Shown here piece by piece: positions 2,015 through 46,603 of a stretch of 64,000 nt of DNA. Each line of letters opens with the position of its first letter. The first letter of the stretch is position 1. Origin of the DNA: Rubripirellula reticaptiva (GTDB lineage: Bacteria; Planctomycetota; Planctomycetia; Pirellulales; Pirellulaceae); contig NZ_SJPX01000003.1 in NCBI RefSeq assembly GCF_007860175.1, positions 693,380-757,379 on the forward strand, written 5' to 3'. A model generated the notes under the pieces. It was not told the DNA's origin and made no database searches. It saw only the letters and a program-made list of their open reading frames with translations. Both the position numbers and the translations under genes were made by a program.

Positions 2015-4762
2015 CTACTGCTTTTCGGTGGAAAGCAATTCGTAGACAGCGTCGAATGCTGGCTTCGGCTTGCGATCGCGGTTGAATAGCAGTGGATGAT
2101 TGACTCTTTGCCACGGAAAATAGTTTAGCCAGCTCTGGCCGTCATGCAGGTTCCAAAATGATACGCGAGCAATCGTGTCTTGGAACTCGTCGAACAGACG
2201 GAATAGATCCACGTACTGTTGGATCATCTGTGCTTCTATATCGGCTGGCATGCCATCCTTGTAAGGATCGAACGACTTGAGCTCGTCGCGGTGCTTGTTG
2301 CCGTCTGCCCACCAGCGGCCTCGTTTGACGACGTCGATGTCAAGTTCCGACACGACAACTTTCAAACCAAGCTTTTTGAGTTCGACAAAGGTCTTGCGTA
2401 GATCGTCAAGCGAATTGTCACCGAGTTCAAAGTGGCCCTGCATTCCGTAGGCGTCGATGGGAGCTCCCTTCGCCTTCAGTTCAGTAAGGAACTCGATCAA
2501 CTTCTCACGTTTGCCCGGCAAGTGGCCGTTATAGTCGTTGTAGATCAGCATCGCATCGGGATCTCCGGCTCTCGCAACCTTGAATGCGGTGACAATGAAA
2601 TCCATTCCGGTCGTCCGCGAATAAACCGAGTCTCGCAGCAGGCCATCACCGCTGTCGCCAATCGCTTCATTTACCACGTCCCAATGGGTGGCCACATCTG
2701 CGTAACGATCGACAACCGTCTTCACATGCGACTCGATGCGTTGCAAGAGTATCTCTCGCGAGACGGGAGCGTCACCTTCCTTCGTCATCCATTCATCGGT
2801 GCGGTCATCTTTCGCCCAGACAAGACAGTGACCAACCATCTCAAGATCATTCTTTCGAACGAACTCCGCAAAGCGATCGCTTGCCTCGAAATTCCATCGG
2901 TCTTCCTCGGGATGAATGCCTTGCGGCTTCATGCAGTTTTCCGGGGTCAGGATTTGAAAGTGCCGACGAATCAAAGCAACGTCTTCGACATCCTGCAGCA
3001 CTCGATGGCTGACTCCCACACCCATCTTGAAACGCTTTCCGACGGCATCTTTTAGGGAAGGAACAACGGCAATCGCGTCCAATCCTTCGGTGCCAAACGG
3101 ATAGGTCGTGACGCCAATCTTGTCGAGCAACGCTCCATCTTCGCGATACTTGATGGTTAAGGTGTGTTTGCCAGGACTTGGTTCTAACGCAGCGATTTTG
3201 ACCCATTGCCAGCCACTGGTTGTCAGTCCGTTGACCGACGCAAAGTTCTTGTCATCGAACTTCACCCAAAACGAATCGTCGTCCGCGGAAGGACAGTTCA
3301 CTCTGGCGTAGACGTAGTACTTCGCGTTCTTGCTCGTCACAAATGGAATCGTCAATGCGGCGCGATCGCTATTCGGAACAGCTTGTGGACTGTTGAGACC
3401 AGTTTTGACCGCAAGGTATTGTCCGCCGGAAGCCACCGGATCGCTGCCGGTCACCCAGTCGGATCCGTAAGACGTCGCCTCTGCCTCGAACGTGAAGGTT
3501 TCGATGTCCTGGTCATCGAGAGTTGGGAAGGTTGAGTTTCCTGTTGTCCAAGCGTCGTACCAGAGTTCATGGTCAACGGTCTCAAACGGGTGTTTGGTAA
3601 CCGCGGTATTCGCATCCGTTTTGCCGAGCAAAAATTTGTCCACGAATGCTTCGACTTCGGGACGTTGACTCGCAGGGAGCTGGCAATGCTGGTGACCGCC
3701 GACGATTGAAAAACCAAATCGATCACCAATGCCAAACGTCTTCCAAACTTTGTGAGCAGCCCGACAAGACACATATCCGGACTCATCCGCTAGCCATTCG
3801 TAGTCGGGATTTCCGAGGACCAGCAACGCTCGCGGAGCAACCATTGCCATCAACTCATGGTGGTCGTACGGAAGTTTTTCGACGGCGTCCGAAAACTGAA
3901 ACATGTCTTCCAAGAACCATGCGCGACTTGTTTTGCCGAGCGTTTCCACGTTGCCGAGCGTCTCCGAAACTCGCCACGCCGCAGCACCTCCTCCGCCAGG
4001 TTCCTGAGTGATTGTCAGCGCAATTCGTTCGTCGAAGGCTCCGGCAAACAAAGCCATCTTTCCGGCAAACGAACAACCAGTCACCGCAAGGTGTTTGCGA
4101 TCAATCGGAAGGTCATTTTCGACAAGTTCAAGGCCATCAATGATTCGACTGACTCCCCAAGGCCATGCACTGTAGGCTCCGATGTGAATCTGGTCGGGGT
4201 AGAGTCGGTTGATGGGTTCGTCGCCACGAGTTTGTGTGTGCGACATCACCTGACCAAAGTCGAAGGCAATCGTAGCGATCTTTCGGCTTTGAAAAATGTC
4301 TGCGGGCAGGCTGCCCGTTCCTCGCCCCATTCCAATCACAGCCGGAAATGGTCCGTCGCCGTCCGGTAGCTCAACGCGCGCCGTCAACGTCAGCGTTTCA
4401 CCATTCTGCGTCACTTTCACGGTCAGCATGCCATCTTTGAAATCGGCAACGATGCCCTTTGGCTGAGGCGGCTTCGTGCCAATTCCGTAGTGCTCAATTT
4501 CCGTCTTGATTTCCGAACGACGACGAGCCCAGTCGTTGAATTCAGTTGAACGTCCGCTGCCGTCCGACCACGCAAATGGATCGGGAAGAGGCCGAACCGA
4601 GGGCAACTTTTCGAATTTGGGCAGCGCAGGTTTCGGGAACTCCGATCGGGCGTGCTCAACGTCATAGACAAGAGGAACGTTCTGCGCGGGACAGCTTCCG
4701 GCCGCGAAAATGAGTAGCGTGAATCGGACGATCATCGCTGAATATGTCATGTTTTCTAGCAT
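2015..4762 (-). CDS. Trimodular CE15 glucuronoyl esterase - CBM - GH10 xylanase
   Basis: This 915-residue secreted protein has a signal peptide at about residues 1-26. Residues about 40-395 are a CE15 glucuronoyl-esterase-like hydrolase: the nucleophile motif is GCSFAGK (Ser231), followed by a GGGG stretch and a late GGHQHC with the probable catalytic His. Residues about 410-560 look like a CBM35/CBM6-type beta-sandwich (starts FEAEA). Residues about 570-910 are a GH10 domain with acid/base Glu699 in WDVVNEAI and nucleophile Glu806 in SELDID. GH10 cleaves beta-1,4-xylan and CE15 cleaves the ester between 4-O-methylglucuronate and lignin or another partner. CE15 usually has Arg after the nucleophile Ser (GCSRxGK); here it is Phe. 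The ATG at 4762 is followed by in-frame ATGs at codons 5 and 10, so the exact start is uncertain. Confidence 0.9.
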   Translation of the reverse strand: MLENMTYSAMIVRFTLLIFAAGSCPAQNVPLVYDVEHARSEFPKPALPKFEKLPSVRPLPDPFAWSDGSGRSTEFNDWARRRSEIKTEIEHYGIGTKPPQPKGIVADFKDGMLTVKVTQNGETLTLTARVELPDGDGPFPAVIGMGRGTGSLPADIFQSRKIATIAFDFGQVMSHTQTRGDEPINRLYPDQIHIGAYSAWPWGVSRIIDGLELVENDLPIDRKHLAVTGCSFAGKMALFAGAFDERIALTITQEPGGGGAAAWRVSETLGNVETLGKTSRAWFLEDMFQFSDAVEKLPYDHHELMAMVAPRALLVLGNPDYEWLADESGYVSCRAAHKVWKTFGIGDRFGFSIVGGHQHCQLPASQRPEVEAFVDKFLLGKTDANTAVTKHPFETVDHELWYDAWTTGNSTFPTLDDQDIETFTFEAEATSYGSDWVTGSDPVASGGQYLAVKTGLNSPQAVPNSDRAALTIPFVTSKNAKYYVYARVNCPSADDDSFWVKFDDKNFASVNGLTTSGWQWVKIAALEPSPGKHTLTIKYREDGALLDKIGVTTYPFGTEGLDAIAVVPSLKDAVGKRFKMGVGVSHRVLQDVEDVALIRRHFQILTPENCMKPQGIHPEEDRWNFEASDRFAEFVRKNDLEMVGHCLVWAKDDRTDEWMTKEGDAPVSREILLQRIESHVKTVVDRYADVATHWDVVNEAIGDSGDGLLRDSVYSRTTGMDFIVTAFKVARAGDPDAMLIYNDYNGHLPGKREKLIEFLTELKAKGAPIDAYGMQGHFELGDNSLDDLRKTFVELKKLGLKVVVSELDIDVVKRGRWWADGNKHRDELKSFDPYKDGMPADIEAQMIQQYVDLFRLFDEFQDTIARVSFWNLHDGQSWLNYFPWQRVNHPLLFNRDRKPKPAFDAVYELLSTEKQ

Positions 4763-4978
4763 GTACGGTGACTTTCAAAAAGATGATGGCTCGGCAGCGT
4801 TCGCAGTAACACCAATTCAGCAGTGAGAAATGCTTCGCACTAGGATGTAGGCTTACTCGTCGTGAACATGCATCATTTTCGCAAAGCAGAAGCCATGCGA
4901 CTGCAACAATGCAGGCAATCTCGACAATAATGATCGAGTCATTCTATCCATTTGAAATCGCGAGATGCGAGTTTATCA

Positions 4979-7900
4979 ATGAAGCATATTCTAGAAGCGT
5001 TTTTGCTCAGAGCTTTTTTGGTGCTGCTGACCGGTTGCTCGATAGCAGTGGCAGGCGACCCACCCCGCGAATGGATCGACGCGAAGACGGGGCATCGGGT
5101 GGTGCGACTTTCTGAGCAAGCCGGCAGCGTGAGTCTGTACTTTCATCAAAACACGTACTCTCCCGAGGGAGACAAGCTGCTGATTTCAACACCGCGCGGG
5201 CTGGAAACCGTTGACTTGCATTCGTACGAACTAAAAGTTGTCGTGCCTCGCAGTGATTTTCGGATGGGTGGCAGCAGTGGTGTCGAGATGGGACGTAAGA
5301 CCCGCCACGTTTATTATGCAGCACGAACTCGCGAAGGTACGGTCGTTCGAGCGACTCACATCGACACGGGTGAAACTCGTGATCTCGTCACTCTACCGCG
5401 GGGGGCCGGTTTTAACGGTGTTAACGCTGATGAAACGTTGTTATTCGGATCGATCAGAGATTTCGAGACGGCGGACCGTTCGGGAGATCGTGATCGTTCT
5501 CGCAGCGGCCAGCGTGATTCAGAGCGGTCGATGAAGCTGTTCACTGCGGACATTGCCACTGGCGAGATTAATACCTTTCATCCATCAAAGGCGTGGCTGA
5601 ATCATTTGCAGTGTTCGCCGACCGACCCAAAGTTTGGACTGTTTTGTCACGAAGGCATTTGGCAGGACGTCGATCGCGTTTGGACGATTACATTGGGAAG
5701 TGAAGACGCGAAGTTGATGCACCGTCGACAACAGCAATACGAGATCGCTGGACATGAATTTTTCAGCGCCGATGGTCAGTGGGTCTGGTACGACCTGCAA
5801 ACACCGCGGGCTGATCAGTTCTGGCTCGCAGGCGTGGATGTGAAGACCGGCGAAAGAATTCGATACTCATTGAAGCGACAAGAGTGGTCCGTTCACTACA
5901 ACCAATCTCAAGACGGGAAACTGTTTGCGGGTGACGGCGGTGGACCGGAAAGTGTTGCAAACCAAACACCGCTGCCAGAAAAACGACGGTTGAATCCTGC
6001 CGGCAACGGCCAATGGATTTACTTGTTTCGACCAAGCGATGAATTCACTGAAGCAACGGTCGGTGGCGAACCAGCAAAGTCGGGTACGTTGACCGCCGAG
6101 CGTCTAGTCGATCTTTCGACTCATGACTACGACCTTGAACCCAACGTCAACTTCACACCGGACGGCAAGTGGATTGTGTTTCGGTCCAACATGCACGGCG
6201 AACGGCATGTCTACATGGTGAGTGTCGAACGGGACAAGGGTGCTGGTGACACACCGGCCTTGGAATCTGCATCGCTCTCAGCCGACACCACACTCGTTCA
6301 ACGCCGATTGGTGCTGATTGGCGACTCCACCGTGAAGAACGGAACTGGTCGGGGCGACGACGAACTTTTCGGCTGGGGCCAGTTCATCGACAATCACTTC
6401 GACACCAATCGCATCGAAGTCGAGAACAGGGCGCTGGGCGGTCGCAGCAGTCGGACGTATCTCACCGAAGGTTTGTGGAAGAAGTCGCTGGATCGTCTGC
6501 GCAAAGGTGACTATGTGATGATGCAATTCGGCCACAACGACGGCGGCAAGATGTTTGACGGTGATCGGCCACGAGCGTCCATCAAAGGCAACGGCGACGA
6601 ATCAATCGACGGAGTGGTTGCTGAGACAGGCAAGGCGGAAACCGTTCACAGTTTCGGCTGGTATCTGCGGAAGTATATTGCGGATGCGAAAGCGAAAGGA
6701 GCCATTCCTATCGTTCTGTCGCAGGTTCCTCGCGATCGCTGGCAGGAAAGCCGCGTGATTCGTTCTGATCGTGACTACGGTTTATGGGCTAAGCAAGCTG
6801 CTGAGCAAACGGGAGCATTGTTCATCGATTTGAACGAGATTGTTTGTCGCCGGTATGAAGAGTTGGGCGAAGAGAAAGTTGGCCGTGAACTGTTCACTCC
6901 TGACGACTGGACCCATACACGCCGAGAAGGCGCCGAGATCAATGCGGCTTGCGTCGCTGAAGGAGTCGAGACGCTAAGAGATTGTTCGCTTAAAACGTTC
7001 CTGCGCGAGGACGAGGGCAAGTCTGCAGAGACTCAAAGTTCTTGGCAGTTTCATTTTGGTGACGGCCCGGCCGAATCAAGGCACTCGCACGTTCGTCCCA
7101 ATGACGAATACTCCAGTCAACGTGGTTATGGATTCCTGAAAACCGACTCAGACAAGGCTGCCGTTTTTGCAATCGACATTGAAGAAGGCAATTACGCGGT
7201 GACCATGCGTTTCGGGCATGCCGATCGTTCCACGTCAACCACGATCAAAGCAGAAGCTCGTCGATTGATGTTGGAAAACGTCGAGACAGCACCAGGCGAG
7301 TTCGTGACGCGAACTTTTAGTGTTAACGTGCGGGGCCCAATGATTTCGTCTGGCAATAAAGTTGCATTAAATAGCCGCGAATTGGAAAATAACGGGCACC
7401 CCAACTGGGACGGTCGACTGACGCTTGAGTTCAATGGCAAACAGCCGCGTGTTGACGCAGTGACCATCGAGCCGGCGACTGACACGACAACGATCTTCAT
7501 CGCTGGCGATTCCACCGTCACTGATCAACGCAACGAACCATACGCCGGCTGGGGGCAGATGCTAACGCGGTTCTTTAAACCAAGCGTCACGGTATCGAAT
7601 TACGCTGAATCTGGATTGGCACTTCGTTCCTTCGAGTATCAACGACGACTCGAAAAGGTTCTCAGTACGATGAAGGCGGGTGATTATCTGCTGATACAGT
7701 TTGGGCACAACGACCAGAAGGATAGGCGAAAAGACGCAGGCGCTTTCACGACTTACAAGAGGAAGTTGGCGGAGTTTGTCGAAGCGGTTCGTTCGAAGCA
7801 GGGAATTCCCGTGTTAATCACATCCATGGAAAGACTACGAATGGACGAGCGAGGTAATCAAACACCAACGCTTTTCGAGTTCGCTGAGGCCGTCCGTCAA

Positions 7901-17564: not shown

Positions 17565-18455
17565 TCAGTCGTTGATGCTGCCGTGGGCAGAGGAGTTGAG
17601 GTTGTGTTTGCGATAGTCGCGTGGTGACGATCCGATCAGGATTTTGAATTGTCGACTAAAATAGTTGCTGTCTGCGAATCCGACGGACATCGCGATATCA
17701 GTGATGCTCTTGTCGGTTTGGGCAAGCAGTTTGCAGGCTTGTCGAAGTCTCAGTCGAATCAGGTAGGCGATTGGTGGGCAGCCCATCGTCGCCTCGAACG
17801 TCCGCAGAAAATTTCGGCGCGACATGCCTGACATTTCAACCAGCTCGTCGAGCGTGATCGGATCCGAGTAGTGACGTTCAATCTGGGCAATCGTCTCGGC
17901 AATTCGAAGCAACGATTTGCTTTGCGGACTGCGTGATTGGCTGTAGCACCGCGACAGAAAGGTTGCTAACTGCAAGAACGCCGTCGTAGCCATCACTCCA
18001 AATCCCGCGTCCCGCTCGGCCAGTTCTTGTTCCAGTTGATCGGCAAGCCGAATTGCCTGGACAAGTTCCGGGGGCGAGAGTTGCAAGCGACTGTTAAAAC
18101 CGTGGCGTTTGCGCCAAGCAGGTTCCAGCGTGAACAGTGCGTGATACCCAGGCAGCGATGGCAAATCGCTTAGCGTCATCGGCAACTCGTTTCCGTCGAA
18201 CAAGACGTTGATCAGACGCAACTGGTCCATGTTCAAATAGTCATGGGGACGCGAAGGCCCGATGACAAAGGTGTCGCCGGCGACAAGTTCGTAAGAATCC
18301 TCGCCGGTGATGTGTTCCCCCTTGCCGCCGGTAATGATGACGATTTCCGAGAACTCGTGGGAGTGAAGCCCGAACGGTTCCTGCGGATCACGCCGTTCCA
18401 CGACGATCGGAAACCCGTCCGCGTGGAACCAGTCCTGCTTCTTTAGCACCTGCAT
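17565..18455 (-). CDS. AraC/XylS-family transcriptional regulator with cupin sensor domain
   Basis: With ATG 18455 this is a 296-residue regulator; a longer frame to 18575 exists, but its first 40 residues (rich in His and Arg) do not look like part of the fold. The N-terminal cupin (about residues 1-150; [19 protein letters not shown], then [14 protein letters not shown]) resembles the sugar-binding domain of RhaR/RhaS and AraC. The C-terminal double helix-turn-helix is clear ([21 protein letters not shown], then [22 protein letters not shown]). It is transcribed in the same direction as the GH32 gene 316 bp downstream and probably controls it; the inducer would be a fructan-derived sugar or rhamnose. 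The target is inferred from position. Confidence 0.9.
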
Positions 18456-18662: not shown

Positions 18663-20417
18663 CTACTTCGATGTCGTTTCTGAATCGCCAACATCGACTA
18701 GTCGCCCGGCGGCTTTGATGTGGCTTCGAAGTTCTTTGGGCGAAAGGCTTCGGTCATAGATCGCGACCTCGTCGATCTGGCCAACGAATCGCCGTTCGGC
18801 TCGCGATAGATAGAGCTGGCCGATCACAATCTGCATATTGTTGTTGAGCACACTGACATCAGAATGCTCCGCAGTTAAACGCCCATCGAGCCACACCGAA
18901 ATACGTTCGCCTTTTTTGACTGCGGCGATGTGTTGCCAAACTCGAACTTTATACGGTCTGCTTGCGACGACGTTGCTGCCTTCCAAAACGACGCCTGATG
19001 CGGGTGTCCGATGGACAAATCGCAACGTGTTGGGGCGAAGCCCTTCGAGGTCGTTCTTCCAGTGTTGAGCGAGCGTCTCTAGGATGACGGTGTGTGGATA
19101 CCGTCCGTCTTCTTCCTGAACTCTTTCGTGCATGCAGAGCAATTCGCCGTGATGGTACAGTTCCGGCTTTACCCACATTTCGATCGTGTACTGGTCAAGT
19201 GGTTTAGCTGGCCATAGGCCGGAGCTGTGAAAACCGGAAGAGCTTCCGAGTCGCCCCAGTTCGCAGACTTGGTTTTCGCCGTACTGTCGCCAGCCGGGCT
19301 CGCCAATCAAGACAGCGTCCATGTTGTCCGCGCTGCCTTCGTTTGCGACGTGGTAGGGCGGTTCGCCGCTGATTTCTTCAAACCGCCAGTAGACGCTCGG
19401 CTTGGACTCTAGCACTGTTTCAGCGTATTTTTTATCCAAATTAAGCGGGTCGAACGCGGAAGAACGAGCCGACACAAAACTAGACAGCGACGCTTCGAAC
19501 ATGATCGCTAAGTGATCGCCGTTGGGTTGCGGAGAAAACCGAACGGCCTCGCCATCAACCAAGCAGAGTTCATGAGAAGTCGACACCGCCAGAGGCTTCA
19601 CCAAGGCACGACCCGTGAAGACGTGCAGTTCGCTTTGCATGCCGTTGGACACCAAACCGATTGAACTTTGACCATCGATTGAAACTTCACCAATGGGGCC
19701 ATCGACCATCATGTTCCCGCTGCCGGTACCGAGCGATTTTGCCGTCAAGATCCCGTGACGCAGTTCAAGTTGGCCGTCACCTCGAATGAAAATCCCAGCC
19801 GGACCCTCAAGTCGTACCAGTGCTTCGCCAGGCGTTCCTTCACCGATTCGGATCTCGGCAATGCCCTCCATCAGTTCCAGGTTCTCGCCGTGCTTAATGG
19901 AGGAACCTACGGTTGGATCCGACTCACTCGAAGAGCTCCAAATGCATGCGGTCATCGAAACCAATTGTGGTGATATCGCCGGCACACCGATTTCAGCTGG
20001 CGGTCTTTGTGCAAGCCACTGCTTTGCGCTGGACCACACCAACGAAGCGATCAGCAAGTTGCTAGCCACAAGTGCCAATAGCCATGGGCTTTTCATCCAT
20101 CCGACGGACGGGCGATCGAGTGGGTCGTCAAGGTCACAGGATAGCGTTTCGTTTCGTGCAGAGCTTCGGGACAGGGTTCCGGTCGGGGATTCGTAGGCCA
20201 TGGCCTCCGATAGAACCTCGGCCATCGCCATTGAGTCTAGGTTCCCAGAATCGGTAAAGGCGCATAACTGATCAATCAAAGCCGCAGCTTCGTTCGCGCC
20301 GCCGTCCGATTGGATCAAAGCATTGAGTTTTTCGATCTCGGCATCGCTGAGTGGTTCGGAAAGTAACTTCAGGATCAGGAAGCGCAGATCTTGAAGATTG
20401 TTTGCTTCAGGGCTCAT
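18663..20417 (-). CDS. FecR/LamG membrane protein paired with ECF sigma factor
   Basis: This 584-residue protein has an N-terminal cytoplasmic part (about 1-107), one transmembrane helix at about 109-131 (SPWLLALVASNLLIASLVW), a FecR-like beta region (about 165-290, including IAEIRIGEGTPGEALVRLEGP), and a LamG/concanavalin-like jellyroll (about 340-570, GQIDEVAIYDRSLSPKEL near the end). Its ATG overlaps the sigma factor's stop as ATGA, so the two are translationally coupled. FecR proteins commonly act as sigma regulators; a LamG domain facing the periplasm could bind a glycan. I infer a carbohydrate-responsive sigma/anti-sigma pair. Similar proteins are abundant in planctomycetes, usually unstudied. 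Confidence 0.82.
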   Translation of the reverse strand: MSPEANNLQDLRFLILKLLSEPLSDAEIEKLNALIQSDGGANEAAALIDQLCAFTDSGNLDSMAMAEVLSEAMAYESPTGTLSRSSARNETLSCDLDDPLDRPSVGWMKSPWLLALVASNLLIASLVWSSAKQWLAQRPPAEIGVPAISPQLVSMTACIWSSSSESDPTVGSSIKHGENLELMEGIAEIRIGEGTPGEALVRLEGPAGIFIRGDGQLELRHGILTAKSLGTGSGNMMVDGPIGEVSIDGQSSIGLVSNGMQSELHVFTGRALVKPLAVSTSHELCLVDGEAVRFSPQPNGDHLAIMFEASLSSFVSARSSAFDPLNLDKKYAETVLESKPSVYWRFEEISGEPPYHVANEGSADNMDAVLIGEPGWRQYGENQVCELGRLGSSSGFHSSGLWPAKPLDQYTIEMWVKPELYHHGELLCMHERVQEEDGRYPHTVILETLAQHWKNDLEGLRPNTLRFVHRTPASGVVLEGSNVVASRPYKVRVWQHIAAVKKGERISVWLDGRLTAEHSDVSVLNNNMQIVIGQLYLSRAERRFVGQIDEVAIYDRSLSPKELRSHIKAAGRLVDVGDSETTSK

Positions 20418-20971
20418 TGGGTTCCCTCGCTCACAGAGCGGTCAACACATCTGGACAGTAGGCCGTGGACACGGCTTAGTTCTCGGTAAATTGCATGAGT
20501 CGAACGGTCAACGCGACGGGCAATCTCACTGACACTCAACGACTCAAAATATCTCTGGTGAATCAGATCGTGATCCGCAGCCGGAAGTTTTTTCATACAA
20601 TTTGCAAGCGCTGTTCGTCGCTCATTGACCTCGGCCGATATCGGCACAGCAGCCACCGCCAACTGCTCGATGGTCTCGTCGCTAAGTATTCGAATTTTGT
20701 TCTTGGATTCTCGATATTTCAAGAGTTCGAAGTGCGCGATTCGGCAAGCCCAGGCCGCGAAGTTCCCACCTCTGTCGAACTGATTGAACTTTTGCCACAG
20801 CACCATGCACGTTCGCTGAAAAACCTCGTCGGCGTCATCCACTTGATTCATCGAAATGACTCGCGCAAATGACATGATCTGACTCGAATGCGCAGCCAGC
20901 AGCCGAACGAATTCGTCTTGAGAAATCTTGTTTTCGATGATTCGGTCCGCCGCCAATGTGAACGCGTTCAA
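20414..20971 (-). CDS. ECF-type RNA polymerase sigma factor
   Basis: This 185-residue sigma-70 family protein of the extracytoplasmic-function class shows region 2 (about 20-90: DADEVFQRTCMVLWQKFNQFD, then FAAWACRIAHFELLKYRES) and region 4 (about 120-175: LPAADHDLIHQRYFESLSVSEIARRV, a helix-turn-helix). It is followed by the overlapping FecR/LamG gene. The start is uncertain: the frame begins with TTG at 20971, directly against the first unit of the 21-bp-spaced array, and a second TTG at 20956 is possible. It is divergent from the DUF1559 gene at 21233. It belongs to the planctomycete ECF group found with FecR/LamG partners; autoregulation through the shared intergenic region is inferred. 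Confidence 0.88.
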   Translation of the reverse strand: MNAFTLAADRIIENKISQDEFVRLLAAHSSQIMSFARVISMNQVDDADEVFQRTCMVLWQKFNQFDRGGNFAAWACRIAHFELLKYRESKNKIRILSDETIEQLAVAAVPISAEVNERRTALANCMKKLPAADHDLIHQRYFESLSVSEIARRVDRSTHAIYRELSRVHGLLSRCVDRSVSEGTQ

Positions 20972-21031
20972 TTAGCACGAAAGTGCCATAGCTTAGCACG
21001 ATCGTGACACATCCGTGCAAGTAGTTACCCG
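20972..21031. promoter_or_regulatory. Three-unit array with 21-bp period between sigma factor and DUF1559 genes
   Basis: Unit 1 TTAGCACGAAAGTGCCAT (20972-20989), unit 2 TTAGCACGATCGTGACAC (20993-21010) and a degenerate unit 3 CGTGCAAGTAGTTACCCG (21014-21031) start exactly 21 bp apart, so they lie on one face of the helix. Units 1 and 2 carry the inverted element GCAC-N4-GTG. The same array is found at 35402-35461 in front of the second DUF1559 gene, at nearly the same distance (about 200 bp) from the start codon. Probably a cooperative protein-binding site. Confidence 0.6.
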
Positions 21032-21232
21032 GCGATCGCCAATTGTTTCGCGTTCTTTCTGCTCGGTTTTTCGAAATAGTTCTGGTCTTTAAGAAAAAAT
21101 TCCGTGTTTTTTCAAAAATCGAGCGCGAAGAAATTAGGAGATGCCGGGTAATACCCCGTAAGAGAGTCGCTGTGTTAGATCAGCGGCCCGAGTCACGGTT
21201 TCTTTTCTTGTGTTCTATTTCGGAGTTTTCAG

Positions 21233-22465
21233 ATGAAACGCAAACAAGCCGCGTTCACTTTGGTCGAACTGCTGGTGGTGATTGCCATCATCGGTGTATT
21301 GGTGGGGCTGTTGTTGCCTGCCGTTCAGGCCGCTCGAGAGGCAGCTCGCCGTATGAGCTGTAGCAACAATTTTAAGCAAATTGGCTTGGGGATCCACAAT
21401 TACCACTCGGCGTACAAGCAGCTTCCAACATCTGGTACGGGCACCGATGATATTGCTGGTCGCGACATGTGGGATAAACAAAACGACCTTGTCACGGTCA
21501 ACCGCCGGCTGTCATTTTTGGTCAGCGTGCTTCCCTTCATTGAACAACAGGCGATTTGGGAGCAGATCAGCAACCCGCTTGGCGTGAACGCCAACGGAAC
21601 GACTCGGACGCCACCGTGGCAAGCAATGGGACCGGGCGTTAGCCGGATTGAATACGGTCCCTACGTGACCGAGATCCAGACATTTCGTTGCCCCAGCGAT
21701 CCTGGCCGAGGTCTGCCTGCACTCGGGCGTACGAATTACGCATCGTGTCATGGTGACTCGTCGGTGTTTACGCGGGACCCGTTCTTGGACGTTGACGAAG
21801 TCTCCGCCGGTGCAACGATTCCTTACAGTCAAGAAAACACGCAGTCGATTCGGTCAAGAATCTGTCACCGCGGCATGTTCGTGTTGGCACGAGACATGAA
21901 GTTCCGCGATTGTTTGGACGGACTTTCCAACACCATCATGTGTGGCGAGATCGCTTCGGACTTGGGTGATGGCGATGCCCGTACCAACCTGCCACGCTCT
22001 GGTGCTTATTCGGACCTGGCCGGCAGCGGGCGTAACGAGTGTCGCAAAAATCCATCTTGGGGCGAGCAGTTCTTGGATCCCTTGCGTCCTCGTTTCTGGA
22101 TCCAGGCTGCTTCGTCGTCGGCAAACGCCACCGAAGCACGCGGGTACCGTTGGCACGATTGCTATACCGTGTTCAGTCAGGTTCACACTGTTTTGCCACC
22201 AAATTCGGCGATGTGTTCCGGTGGACGAGCTCACAACGACAACGTGCTTCCCCCATCGAGTCGTCACCAAGGTGGTGCTCACGTGTTGATGGGCGACGGG
22301 GCGGTCAAGTTCATCACCGATTCGATTGAAGCTGGAAACAAAACAGCGACACAAATCGGATACCACGGTAGCCCTCCTACCGTTCCAGGTTCCCAAAGCC
22401 CGTTCGGACTTTGGGGAGCTCTCGGTACTCGGGCAAATTCCGAAGTGATCGATGAGGACATCTAG
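21233..22465 (+). CDS. DUF1559 protein with type IV prepilin-like N-terminus (copy 1)
   Basis: This 410-residue member of the DUF1559 family is expanded in planctomycetes. The N-terminus is a class III signal: a short basic leader MKRKQAA, then [18 protein letters not shown], the cleavage and methylation context of pseudopilins. The family-typical [17 protein letters not shown] follows, and near the C-terminus GDGAVKF and [10 protein letters not shown]. The body is a beta-rich domain with several Cys. Role unknown; probably a surface or periplasmic pseudopilin-type structure. The leader before ATG is TTTCGGAGTTTTCAG, with a CGGAG ribosome-binding site that is also conserved in front of copy 2 (35680). 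The N-terminal 60 residues are nearly identical between the copies, while the middles differ. Confidence 0.92.
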   Translation: MKRKQAAFTLVELLVVIAIIGVLVGLLLPAVQAAREAARRMSCSNNFKQIGLGIHNYHSAYKQLPTSGTGTDDIAGRDMWDKQNDLVTVNRRLSFLVSVLPFIEQQAIWEQISNPLGVNANGTTRTPPWQAMGPGVSRIEYGPYVTEIQTFRCPSDPGRGLPALGRTNYASCHGDSSVFTRDPFLDVDEVSAGATIPYSQENTQSIRSRICHRGMFVLARDMKFRDCLDGLSNTIMCGEIASDLGDGDARTNLPRSGAYSDLAGSGRNECRKNPSWGEQFLDPLRPRFWIQAASSSANATEARGYRWHDCYTVFSQVHTVLPPNSAMCSGGRAHNDNVLPPSSRHQGGAHVLMGDGAVKFITDSIEAGNKTATQIGYHGSPPTVPGSQSPFGLWGALGTRANSEVIDEDI

Positions 22466-35315: not shown

Positions 35316-35679
35316 AAGTATGAAACCGATGAACTTCCGAACATGAATCTAGTTCTTTGACGTTTATCAATCGATTATCGGTTGACGTCAGGATCGAAGA
35401 ACTAGCACAAACATGCCGTTGATTAGCACAAACGTGCCGTGGTCTAGCAAGGTTGTTACTCCCCGAGTATTTAGTTACCGAGTCGCCACAAACAACTTCG
35501 ACAATTTCGACAAATTTGTAGGAATGAACCGGAACTACGGTGTAGTCTCCGGCGTTCAAATGCCTTGGTGGCATTATAGCTGGCATCGCCAGAATTAATC
35601 GAAGCTAAACAGATCGTTGCACCAGTTCAACGATTCCAACAACTGATTTTCTTATTTTGTTCCCTTTCGGAGTTTTCAA
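35316..35679. other. Intergenic region ahead of second DUF1559 gene
   Basis: These 364 bases hold the three-unit 21-bp-period array (35402-35461) and, further down, two small inverted repeats (ATGCC-N5-GGCAT near 35560 and CTGGC-N3-GCCAG near 35580). A possible minus-strand frame runs through the region into the GH106 gene, but it shows no protein features. The 3' end contains the conserved leader TTTCGGAGTTTTCAA before ATG 35680. Confidence 0.5.
35402..35461. promoter_or_regulatory. Three-unit array with 21-bp period upstream of DUF1559 copy 2
   Basis: CTAGCACAAACATGCCGT (35402-35419), TTAGCACAAACGTGCCGT (35423-35440) and the degenerate CTAGCAAGGTTGTTACTC (35444-35461) begin every 21 bp. 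The first two contain GCAC-N4-(G/A)TGC. Order, spacing and degenerate third unit match the array at 20972-21031. The distance to the DUF1559 start is 218 bp here and 201 bp there. Confidence 0.6.
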
Positions 35680-36930
35680 ATGAAGCGTACCCAATCCGCG
35701 TTCACGTTGGTCGAACTGCTGGTGGTCATTGCGATCATCGGTGTGCTCGTCGGCCTATTGCTGCCTGCGGTGCAGGCTGCCCGCGAGGCAGCTCGGCGAA
35801 TGAGTTGCAGTAACAATTTCAAGCAAATTGGCTTGGGAATTCACAACTACCATTCTGCTTTCAAGCAACTGCCCATACACGGCTCGGGAACCTATGTTCC
35901 GAGCGGGCGAGACTTGTGGGATCAGCCGAGTCCGGTCAACGGTTACACGGGGACATCCAATCATCGCTTGTCGATGCTCGTAGGCCTGACCCCATTCATC
36001 GAGCAACAAGCTTTGTGGGAACAGATCAGCAACCCACTCTCGTTCAATACCAACGGAAGCACACGAACGCCTCCTTGGCAGGCGATGGGGCCTCGACCCG
36101 ACGAAATCAACTATCCGCCGTACGCGACGGACATCCCTACTTTTCGCTGCCCCAGCGACCCAGGTATCGGGCTTCCCGCCTTGGGCCGAACCAACTACGC
36201 CGCCTGTACCGGCGACTCCTCCTATCGCTCGCGCGACCCGTACTTGAATGTAAATGAAGTTGGCGAGGACGGCAGCGTAACCAACCCTTACACGGCCTCG
36301 GCCGGAACGGCAGGACATTCGAATGCCGCGCATCGCGGGATGTTCGTGCTAACTCGGGGAATGAAGTTTAGGGATACGATCGACGGCCTTTCGAACACCG
36401 TCATGTGTGGTGAAATCACGACGGACCTAGGCAACAACGACGCTCGGACTTCGCTTCCTCGGGGCGACGGGGTCGGAGTCACCGGCGAACGTCAAAACTG
36501 TCACTTGAATCCGTCGTTTTTGGAAGCAACGTTGGACCCTTTGCGTCCACGGTTCTGGATCGCCGGGCGTAACATCAACGCCAACTGGGGCCGCGGCTTC
36601 CACTGGCATGACTGCATGCCTGTTTACACTCAGATGCACACCATTCTGCCACCAAACAAGCAAATTTGCACTGATGCCAACGGAGCTGGCCACGGTGACT
36701 TGGTTGCTACTGCTTCGAGCCAACACCAAGGTGGGGCTCACGTGCTGATGGGCGATGGTGCAGTCAAGTACATCACCGATTCAATTGAAGCGGGCAATTC
36801 TAGAAACCCAGTTGTTTTCCTCAATGGAACAGCAGCGAACAACAATTACCCCGGTGCGAAAAGCCCGTTTGGTTTGTGGGGTGCTCTGGGATCTCGCGGT
36901 GCTTCAGAAATCATCGATAGTGAATTCTAG
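35680..36930 (+). CDS. DUF1559 protein with type IV prepilin-like N-terminus (copy 2)
   Basis: This 416-residue paralogue of the product of 21233-22465 has the same prepilin leader and helix ([20 protein letters not shown]), the [10 protein letters not shown] block and the C-terminal GDGAVKY and [10 protein letters not shown] motifs. Protein identity is very high over the first 60 residues and the C-terminus, with divergent middle segments around residues 65-95 and 180-260, so these probably arose by duplication. It is monocistronic: a strong bidirectional terminator follows at 36977, and a small lipoprotein gene faces it. It is preceded by the 21-bp-period array. Function unknown beyond family knowledge. 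Confidence 0.92.
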
Positions 36931-44574: not shown

Positions 44575-45313
44575 CAAGCGGGCAATCGAGGTTTTCTTAT
44601 TGTCATCTGCGGCAAAACTTCGCTGACGTTGCAATAGCGTTTTTCGCCAAGACCAGATCGGACGTTGCTTTCGGAGACAATTTTTGAGTGCTTCCGAGAG
44701 CACCGCGGTCTTCGGTGGCCGGGTTAGCGGTCAGTTTGAGTGGCGTACAACTTAATCAATCTTCGAAAGGTTGATTAAAACGAAGTTGTTTGCGATAGAT
44801 GCACGGCGACGCCGCTTGCGTTAGCTTTTTGGAGTTTCCGGTCGGCAAAGAAATGGTCGAACTTGATTGGCGGACCTTGACTATCTGTGGCTGCGTGAGA
44901 ATGGCATCGTTCTGCTGTCGGGAGATCAAGGTTCATCATTCCGGAGCCTGCTTTCGCCGAATTTCAAGCGAACCTGCTTGATTCGATCAAGTGACTGGCG
45001 ATCCGCTGGTACCGCTCGGAACTGATCGACGTGTTCGCTGGGGCAATGAGTCGGACAACGTTAGGGGTTACGCAGTTTCGGGGATTCCCGGAGGACTCTT
45101 TGGTGGCACTATAGTCCTGTTTCTTGTCGCGATCGTCATGGTTTCTGAAACATTGGTGATCTAAATTATTTCCTTGTTGGCACTTTTGTTGACGGAAACA
45201 GGATCGTGATCGTGGGATCGTTGGCAACCTAATCCAGTCGCTGATTCACTCGGCTACCACACTCTTCTGTAGACTTCTCTGTCATTCACTCACTTTGCAT
45301 AGGACACCGCGGC
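44575..45313. other. 739-bp region without a convincing gene
   Basis: No frame longer than 87 codons is convincing. It contains a hairpin at 44752-44778. Around 44830-45010 there are short runs of codons with coding-like composition in different frames (for example RENGIVLLSGDQG and AFAEFQANLLDSIK), which could be the decayed remains of a gene. It forms the boundary between the second sulfatase group and the rhamnose genes. Confidence 0.4.
44752..44778. other. Near-perfect 27-bp palindromic hairpin
   Basis: TTAATCAATCTT pairs with AAGGTTGATTAA around a CGA loop (12 bp including one T-G wobble). It lies 178 bp after the sulfatase stop. No T-run follows, so it is a weak terminator candidate or an operator-like palindrome. 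Confidence 0.4.
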
Positions 45314-46603
45314 ATGTCGAACTCAGCAAACCTTCAAAAAACTTTCGAGCTTGCCGTCGAGCGATATGAATCGCTTGGCGTGAACGTTCAACACGCTTTA
45401 GATCGACTGCGCGACGTTGCGATTTCGGTCCACTGCTGGCAAGGCGACGACGTTGTCGGATTCGAAGGTAGCGATGGTGCACTTGGCAACGGGCTTGCCG
45501 TTACCGGCAATTATCCCGGACGCGCTCGGACACCTTGTGAACTTCGCAGTGATTTGGAACTTGCCTATTCGCTGATTCCCGGCAAGCACCGGTTGAACTT
45601 GCACGCGTTGTACGGCGAATTTGATGGGCCGGTTGATCGCGACGCGATTGGCGTCGAACACTTTCAAGGTTGGATCGACTGGGGACGCAGCCAAGGTGTC
45701 AATCTAGACTTTAACCCGAGTTATTTTTCGCACGAAAAAGCAAGCGACGGATTCACCCTGGCTCATTCGGATTCTGGCATTCGCCAGTTCTGGATCGATC
45801 ACGGCATTGCCTGTCGCAAGATCGCAGCGGCAATGGGTGCGGCGCAAGGCAACGCATGTGTCAACAATTTCTGGGTACCGGACGGTTGGAAAGACTCACC
45901 TGCCAGCCGCAAGGATCCGCGAGAACGGCTCGCTGCATCGCTTGACGAGATCTTTGCCGAGAAGCTTGACGCCGCTCACACATTGGACGCCGTCGAGTGC
46001 AAGTTGTTTGGGATTGGCAGTGAAAGTTATGTCGTAGGGTCGCATGAGTTCTACATGGGCTATGCGATCTCGCGAAACAAAGTGCTTTGTCTCGACGCGG
46101 GGCACTTTCATCCGACCGAAGTGATCTCGGACAAAATTTCATCGGTGATGATGTACGTTCCCGAGTTACTTTTGCACGTTAGTCGCGGCGTTCGCTGGGA
46201 TAGTGACCACGTAGTGACTTATACGGACGAATTGCAATCGATCATGCAAGAGATCGTTCGCGGCGACTATTTGGATCGCGTCCACATCGGACTCGACTTC
46301 TTTGACGCCAGTATCAATCGAGTGGCAGCGTGGGCAATTGGAACTCGTAACGCGTTGAAGGCTGTCTTGGCTGCACTTCTAGAGCCGACCGAAACCTTGC
46401 AACAACTTGAACGTGATGGTGACTACACCGGACGCTTAGCGCTGCTTGAAGAGCAAAAGATGATGCCGCTAGGCGCAGTCTGGGATTACTACTGTCAATC
46501 GGCTGGTGTGCCGGTCGGTGCCGAGTGGCTGGACAAAGTGCGTGCCTATGAAGCGGCCGTGCAGTCGCAGCGTTCATGCGAGGTCGGTGCGGTGGTTGGA
46601 TAG
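45314..46603 (+). CDS. rhaA: L-rhamnose isomerase
   Basis: This 429-residue cytoplasmic protein matches L-rhamnose isomerase across its length: [13 protein letters not shown] near the N-terminus, [36 protein letters not shown] with metal-binding residues, and DSDHVV. It converts L-rhamnose to L-rhamnulose using a divalent metal. There is no signal peptide. It begins a plus-strand run with a permease, a small membrane protein and a secreted GH78 rhamnosidase, which makes rhamnose the likely product of extracellular degradation here. Rhamnulokinase and aldolase genes are not in the window. Confidence 0.95.

Follow-up and report, generated by a model that had tools for sequence, protein, structure and literature searches.

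For AraC of E. coli, araI1-araI2 consists of two half-sites placed 21 bp apart, the nearer of which lies at the -35 box. Rhamnose operators of the AraC type, built as direct repeats of 21-bp period, have been published for Bacillales, Bacteroides and Enterococcus, as set out in passages of PMC3870299, the main text of which has 0 occurrences of the term 'Planctomyc'. No planctomycete rhamnose regulon, promoter geometry for one, or DUF1559 operator was found in the open-licence literature searched. DUF1559 genes number 74 in R. baltica, according to a passage of PMC2754498. An initial sequence-only reading of the repeat arrays analysed here had known of no described system with their pattern, a claim contradicted by the published systems named above, in which an AraC-family regulator of rhamnose genes has an operator of 21-bp direct repeats.

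The stretch of DNA analysed (the window) comprises 64,000 nucleotides of Rubripirellula reticaptiva and looks like a sulfated-rhamnose degradation locus, with 10 sulfatases, two GH78-type rhamnosidases, a GH106 enzyme, rhaA, a GH10-like enzyme and a Gfo/Idh-type protein. Two DUF1559 pilin-like genes, each with PF07596 and N_methyl domains, lead gene runs on the plus strand: gene 1 (21233 to 22465) is first in a GH78/GFO/sulfatase/GH106 run and gene 2 (35680 to 36930) is followed by sulfatases and the GH10-like gene. Array 1 is located between gene 1 and a minus-strand ECF sigma factor gene of the Rhodopirellula/Verrucomicrobium family (20414 to 20971; TIGR02989 above cut-off, TTG start uncertain); array 2 is flanked by the end of GH106 on one side and by gene 2 on the other. 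Behind the sigma factor gene is a LamG-domain protein (18663 to 20417, minus strand; Laminin_G_3), a putative anti-sigma partner judging by its position, and adjoining this is the gene of an AraC-family regulator.

The intact units begin at 20973, 20994, 35403 and 35424, lying 21 bp apart within each pair, with TTAGCAC read at 20972, 20993 and 35423 and CTAGCAC at 35402. Direct reading of the sequence thus bore out the unit positions and exact 21-bp periods first proposed, and also the distances of 201 bp (21031 to 21233) and 218 bp (35461 to 35680) from array end to DUF1559 ATG. For scoring, a 16-column matrix was built from 33 distinct units of 43 sites, all in other genomes, and the four intact units took ranks 1 to 4 of the approximately 128,000 window positions. 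All are read on the minus strand: unit A of array 1 (20973 to 20988, TGGCACTTTCGTGCTA) scored 25.0 bits (rank 1) and its unit B (20994 to 21009, TGTCACGATCGTGCTA) 18.6 bits (rank 4), while units A (35403 to 35418, CGGCATGTTTGTGCTA) and B (35424 to 35439, CGGCACGTTTGTGCTA) of array 2 scored 19.5 bits (rank 3) and 22.5 bits (rank 2). Rank 5 (16.3 bits) falls within the coding region of DUF1559 gene 2 and is probably due to chance; rank 6 is the first unit upstream of rhaA (12.4 bits, a score with ~0.9 chance matches per 64 kb). The third, degenerate units that had been described at 21014 to 21031 and 35444 to 35461 were unsupported, reaching at best -19 bits (rank >2000) and, weakly, -7 bits (rank 598). 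Since these fail in the unit model, each array consists of two units rather than three.

The signal resides in the two-unit form. With up to 2 mismatches, TTAGCACN5TGCCN5TTAGCAC matched the whole 7.85 Mb genome solely at arrays 1 and 2 (three matches, two of them overlapping inside array 2), and the reversed control gave one match at the same stringency. In the window the single unit TAGCACN4GTGC, allowing 2 mismatches, occurs about as often as chance predicts (40 observed, 44.8 expected). Measured against chance, the proposed pattern therefore stood as a pair and not as a single unit. The two 60-bp arrays are identical at 35 of 60 positions; the best ungapped 60-mer match elsewhere in the two leaders reaches 29/60 when the last 25 bases are left out and 39/60 when they are included, the latter being the stretch immediately 5' of the ATG. 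A MAFFT alignment of the two leaders put the arrays out of register and its 75% identity was disregarded. The array is very probably a regulatory element, and the sequence-only reading was supported on these points: what looks like a regulatory site, units spaced 21 bp so as to lie on the same face, and a position at the head of two DUF1559-led gene runs. A sigma-54 (-24/-12) element was dropped as a candidate, its TGC lying one base out of register with the consensus.

The regulator gene (17565 to 18455, minus strand, with the Met of MQVLKK as presumed start) is located 2.5 kb from array 1. Its product has an AraC-type DNA-binding domain and a cupin sensor (Pfam HTH_18 1.8e-25, AraC_binding 1.8e-11, Cupin_2 1.6e-8). 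The top four of its 31 NCBIfam matches are RhaS/RhaR models, the best being RhaS at 152 bits, and the curated cut-offs are missed (152 vs 288 bits for RhaS, 128 vs 525 for the best RhaR); in the PDB the RhaR sensor domain 5u93 was the best match (1.6e-16). These similarities point to an AraC-family member nearer to RhaS/RhaR than to other members, which is predicted to bind L-rhamnose and the operator. Among 40 loci with AraC orthologues, several of which are one species seen twice, a rhaA match was found beside the orthologue in 36, the match being partial in three of these 36 (L044, L174, L179). In most loci examined the two genes are divergent neighbours; in the window rhaA stands 27 kb from the regulator.

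The array scorer found nothing alongside the AraC orthologues of L039-L047, and the rhaA/AraC intergenic regions of relatives were therefore examined. Read towards rhaA, these contain a unit TGGCACTATTGTGCTA with a second unit 21 bp on, ending GTCAAGG. From the 40 loci, 25 sites were taken, and removal of L164 and L180 (out of register) and one duplicate left 22, among which the short locus L155 shows no rhaA. The 15 loci left out were duplicates or near-duplicates (L154, L159, L169, L172, L173, L176, L177, L179) or had a weak best match (L046, L096, L152, L165, L166, L167, L170), L152 being this genome, in which the regulator is not beside rhaA. With a 38-column matrix of these 22 sites, all upstream of AraC orthologues in other genomes, the best window match was a canonical two-unit operator upstream of rhaA (45104 to 45141, plus strand; 33.8 bits), followed by array 2 (17.9 bits) and array 1, whose 9.3 bits taken alone are inside the simulated null of this matrix (maximum 10.2 in 4 Mb). 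A -10-like box, TAAATT (45162 to 45167), lies 20 nt 3' of the rhaA operator, and rhaA itself (L-rhamnose isomerase, 45314 to 46603, plus strand) matches PF06134 at 6e-200 and TIGR01748 above cut-off. A sequence-only covariance model of the 22 sites, run over all 7.85 Mb, ranked array 2 first (16.4 bits, E 0.08), rhaA second (15.5 bits) and array 1 third (13.4 bits, E 0.7), with 150 of 3213 first-look candidates scored; the matches at the arrays are modest and local. Fourth (E 1.46) came a match on contig C4, outside the window, lying 5' of a further DUF1559 gene. This site (G000:C4:124179-124216, minus strand; L236 4001-4038, L236 being this genome) is a canonical rhamnose-type operator with TACTAT at +20 before a third DUF1559 gene (408 aa), and counterparts of the gene in G143 and G145 (64-66% identical) are also preceded by sites.

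Relatives bearing the regulator had a covariance-model match at E<=1 in 35 of 35 genomes and at E<=0.01 in 31 of 35; many training sites lie in those 35 genomes, and the remaining sites are the fairer test. In a control set of 35 family genomes for which no orthologue was listed, a match at E<=1 was present in 25, as by chance, and one at E<=0.01 in a single genome. That one is a strong site before a sulf1 orthologue (G181:C153:6923-6959, L237), and a regulator orthologue was not found in G181 (94% complete, 470 contigs). In each genome 150 of thousands of first-look candidates were scored, so weaker sites may escape. A selection of 20 regions was chosen among the genome-search matches, L219 containing four sites, and 22 non-training sites were fetched from relatives, including pairs from near-identical genomes (e.g. 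G143/G145) and one that adjoins a second AraC copy (L219 site 11055). Nineteen of these precede rhamnose/sulfated-polysaccharide, aldehyde dehydrogenase, DUF1559 or AraC-type genes: rhaA in five cases, GH78/GH106 in four, sulfatases in four, aldehyde dehydrogenases (presumably lactaldehyde dehydrogenases) in three, DUF1559 in two, and an AraC-type gene followed by DUF1559 in one. Of the other three, one lies before malate:quinone oxidoreductase (Mqo), one before an unknown protein of 217 residues and one before no called gene. The Mqo site, in G145 (L221), is canonical-looking; in G172 (L251) a tandem match with canonical -10 spacing, seen by eye, stands before a trypsin-like gene. Sites are hence not confined to rhamnose genes, and the regulon may include these two as non-rhamnose members. 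G155 (L248) has a tandem match that falls within the beginning of a sulfatase-like frame and was set aside.

A TANNNT box, which had no part in the model or in site finding, occurs 19-21 nt 3' of 21 of the 22 training sites and of 23 of 23 other and own sites (L226 excluded, its site being identical to that of L222), against a chance of ~1% per site over the three positions. These boxes likely mark the sites as promoters of fixed geometry. In this genome the box follows the operators of rhaA and of the C4 DUF1559 gene, and none is present at the canonical spacing on either side of arrays 1 and 2. Both arrays are also reversed relative to their DUF1559 genes when compared with rhaA-type sites; a consensus scan gave no sigma-70 promoter near either array, and no promoter common to the two was found behind them.

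What is observed is that the unit sequences match the rhaA operator and that the gene context agrees. The arrays are most probably operator pairs bound by the 17565-18455 regulator, which would raise both DUF1559-led runs on L-rhamnose, a proposal drawn from sequence comparison. Each array would present two 16-bp half-sites as a direct repeat 21 bp, or two helical turns, apart, and the regulator would most likely bind both units on one face of the DNA. The same regulator most likely controls rhaA as well, through the canonical operator, here and in relatives. The inducer would be L-rhamnose, released from a sulfated rhamnan or ulvan-like polysaccharide, and the two DUF1559-led rhamnosidase/sulfatase runs would be upregulated, with activation favoured over repression and a DUF1559 promoter presumed at each. 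Activators of the MarA/SoxS type are known to use upstream sites in reverse orientation, and activation from the reversed position is therefore possible.

The ECF side of array 1 has features of its own. ECF orthologues with a LamG gene behind them are conserved, and a DUF1559 gene is directly beside the ECF orthologue in 10 of 16 loci, which were used for leader comparison. The ECF-linked DUF1559 leaders align on a CGGGWWA-like element, found 87-99 bases 5' of the start codon by a simple pattern in 6 of the 10 loci and as variants in the alignment in the remainder; at 7 of these 10 loci an element resembling it is directed towards the ECF gene, 85-110 bases 5' of a fixed position close to the ECF start. 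The window has a counterpart of the first in CGGGTAATAC (21145 to 21154, plus strand), a possible ECF promoter -35, and a possible ECF promoter element in CGGGTAAC (21024 to 21031, minus strand). The latter lies within the supposed third unit of array 1, and an ECF promoter there would account for the degenerate look of that unit. The CGGGTAA-type elements facing DUF1559 gene 1 and the ECF gene may plausibly form a divergent ECF promoter pair, and side effects of array 1 on the adjoining ECF gene are possible. The leader of DUF1559 gene 2 has no CGGGWWA-like element at the corresponding place.

These features bear on the alternatives. The main rival, to which we give a real but minor probability, has the same regulator on the arrays acting chiefly as a repressor or road-block, with array 1 overlapping the presumed ECF promoter and start so that regulator and ECF factor compete. 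The reversed orientation and missing canonical -10 would suit such repression of the ECF promoter, as would the placing of CGGGTAAC beside unit B on the minus strand and of the units immediately 5' of the ECF start codon; in relatives, moreover, the AraC gene has an operator that covers part of its own presumed promoter (TTGACG-N17-CACAAT, by eye), with the same orientation. Array 2, however, has no leftward gene to repress, and it is unlikely that catabolic genes would be repressed through a pathway operator with their own inducer. We regard it as highly improbable that the array instead serves the neighbouring ECF sigma factor system, as a binding site or promoter element common to the sigma factor and DUF1559 genes. 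The sequence-only reading was right that array 1 abuts the ECF gene, and in the congener G190 an array likewise sits between divergent ECF and DUF1559 genes; its suggestion of shared sigma-factor control did not hold, units being present in two of 16 orthologous ECF leaders and the other 14 lacking any unit >7.4 bits in the 530 bp at the ECF start. Array 2 also has no neighbouring ECF gene, a near-palindromic 21-bp repeat differs from the two-box form of ECF promoters, and many of the leaders share the CGGGWWA-like element instead.

Binding of the arrays by another AraC-family protein of similar specificity is improbable: paralogues of this family can have common recognition, but a genome search with the regulator at E<=1e-30 gave one location only, 9 of the 23 first-look candidates having been scored. 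One relative, G207, would fit such a protein, having a canonical site, a second AraC-family gene (4116-5078, by eye) and then a DUF1559_1 orthologue (74% identical) in sequence (L218 4001-5246), an arrangement that suggests a two-step cascade. It is scarcely credible that the arrays are functionless leftovers copied with a DUF1559 duplication. G190 lacks DUF1559 gene 2 between GH106 and sulf3, and the gene was hence inserted or lost, which leaves room for such an origin; against it, the two leaders resemble each other more in the arrays than elsewhere, apart from the bases just 5' of the ATG, and G190 has kept its units despite different spacer bases. Returning to operator pairs that activate the DUF1559-led runs, a bolder version, which we consider rather doubtful, has the AraC regulator and the ECF factor wired against each other on one 260-bp region: the reversed operators would activate the DUF1559-led polysaccharide genes while covering the ECF promoter, and DUF1559 would switch from envelope-signal to sugar-signal control. 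If true, the DUF1559 family includes parts of a sugar-induced polysaccharide-uptake machinery.

Across 241 family genomes, the two-unit pattern with 2 mismatches matched in 27, with no excess over the reversed control; the G190 match proved to be a genuine counterpart, and at the stringencies used no genome other than this one and G190 showed the array form. The two G190 units score 18.9 and 15.5 bits ahead of the same gene run, in which GH78, Gfo/Idh, sulf1, GH106 and sulf3 are 76-88% identical to those of the window and are preceded by one DUF1559 gene and one array. In G190 GH106 is directly followed by sulf3, and in the window DUF1559 gene 2 and its own array lie between them; this gene would have come, or stayed, with its operator, both halves remaining under one control. 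L039, which has the same leader as G145, has regulator, ECF, LamG, DUF1559, GH78, Gfo/Idh and sulfatase genes together, yet no array. Given that the array form is limited to this genome and G190 and is absent at L039 and most ECF loci, the arrays are a lineage-specific use of the operator. Recurrence upstream of DUF1559 orthologues in relatives was accordingly seen in part: the ECF-linked locus lacks the array except in one congener, and canonical sites precede other DUF1559 genes.

For Planctomycetes these sites offer a promoter definition of two 21-bp-spaced units, ~N20 and TANNNT, and a predicted rhamnose regulon that takes in sulfatases, rhamnosidases and several DUF1559 genes. The DUF1559 genes are abundant and unexplained, and their predicted co-regulation with sulfated-rhamnose degradation is a lead on the role of some members. 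In the window, two pilin-like genes, together with the genes for seaweed-sugar degradation that follow them, are probably tied to the presence of the sugar.

The CIRCE element begins TTAGCAC and is a single inverted repeat with N9 (TTAGCACTC-N9-GAGTGCTAA); the arrays share this start but are tandem units with N4, and CIRCE was dropped as a candidate on this difference in repeat geometry. The rhaA-type sites described here share the geometry of araI1-araI2, whereas arrays 1 and 2 do not. The window regulator resembles E. coli RhaS/RhaR in its best NCBIfam models and PDB sensor domain, though with scores below the curated cut-offs, and the E. coli RhaR site differs in being, in excerpts of its published description, an inverted repeat of 17-bp half-sites. 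With the RhaR regulons of Bacillales, Bacteroides and Enterococcus, to judge from passages of PMC3870299, the present system shares an AraC-family rhamnose regulator, a 21-bp direct-repeat operator and prediction by comparative genomics; it differs from them, on the same passages, in phylum and motif, in the sulfatases and DUF1559 genes of its predicted regulon and in the reversal of two of its operators. The arrays are thus a planctomycete case of an already described type of rhamnose operator.
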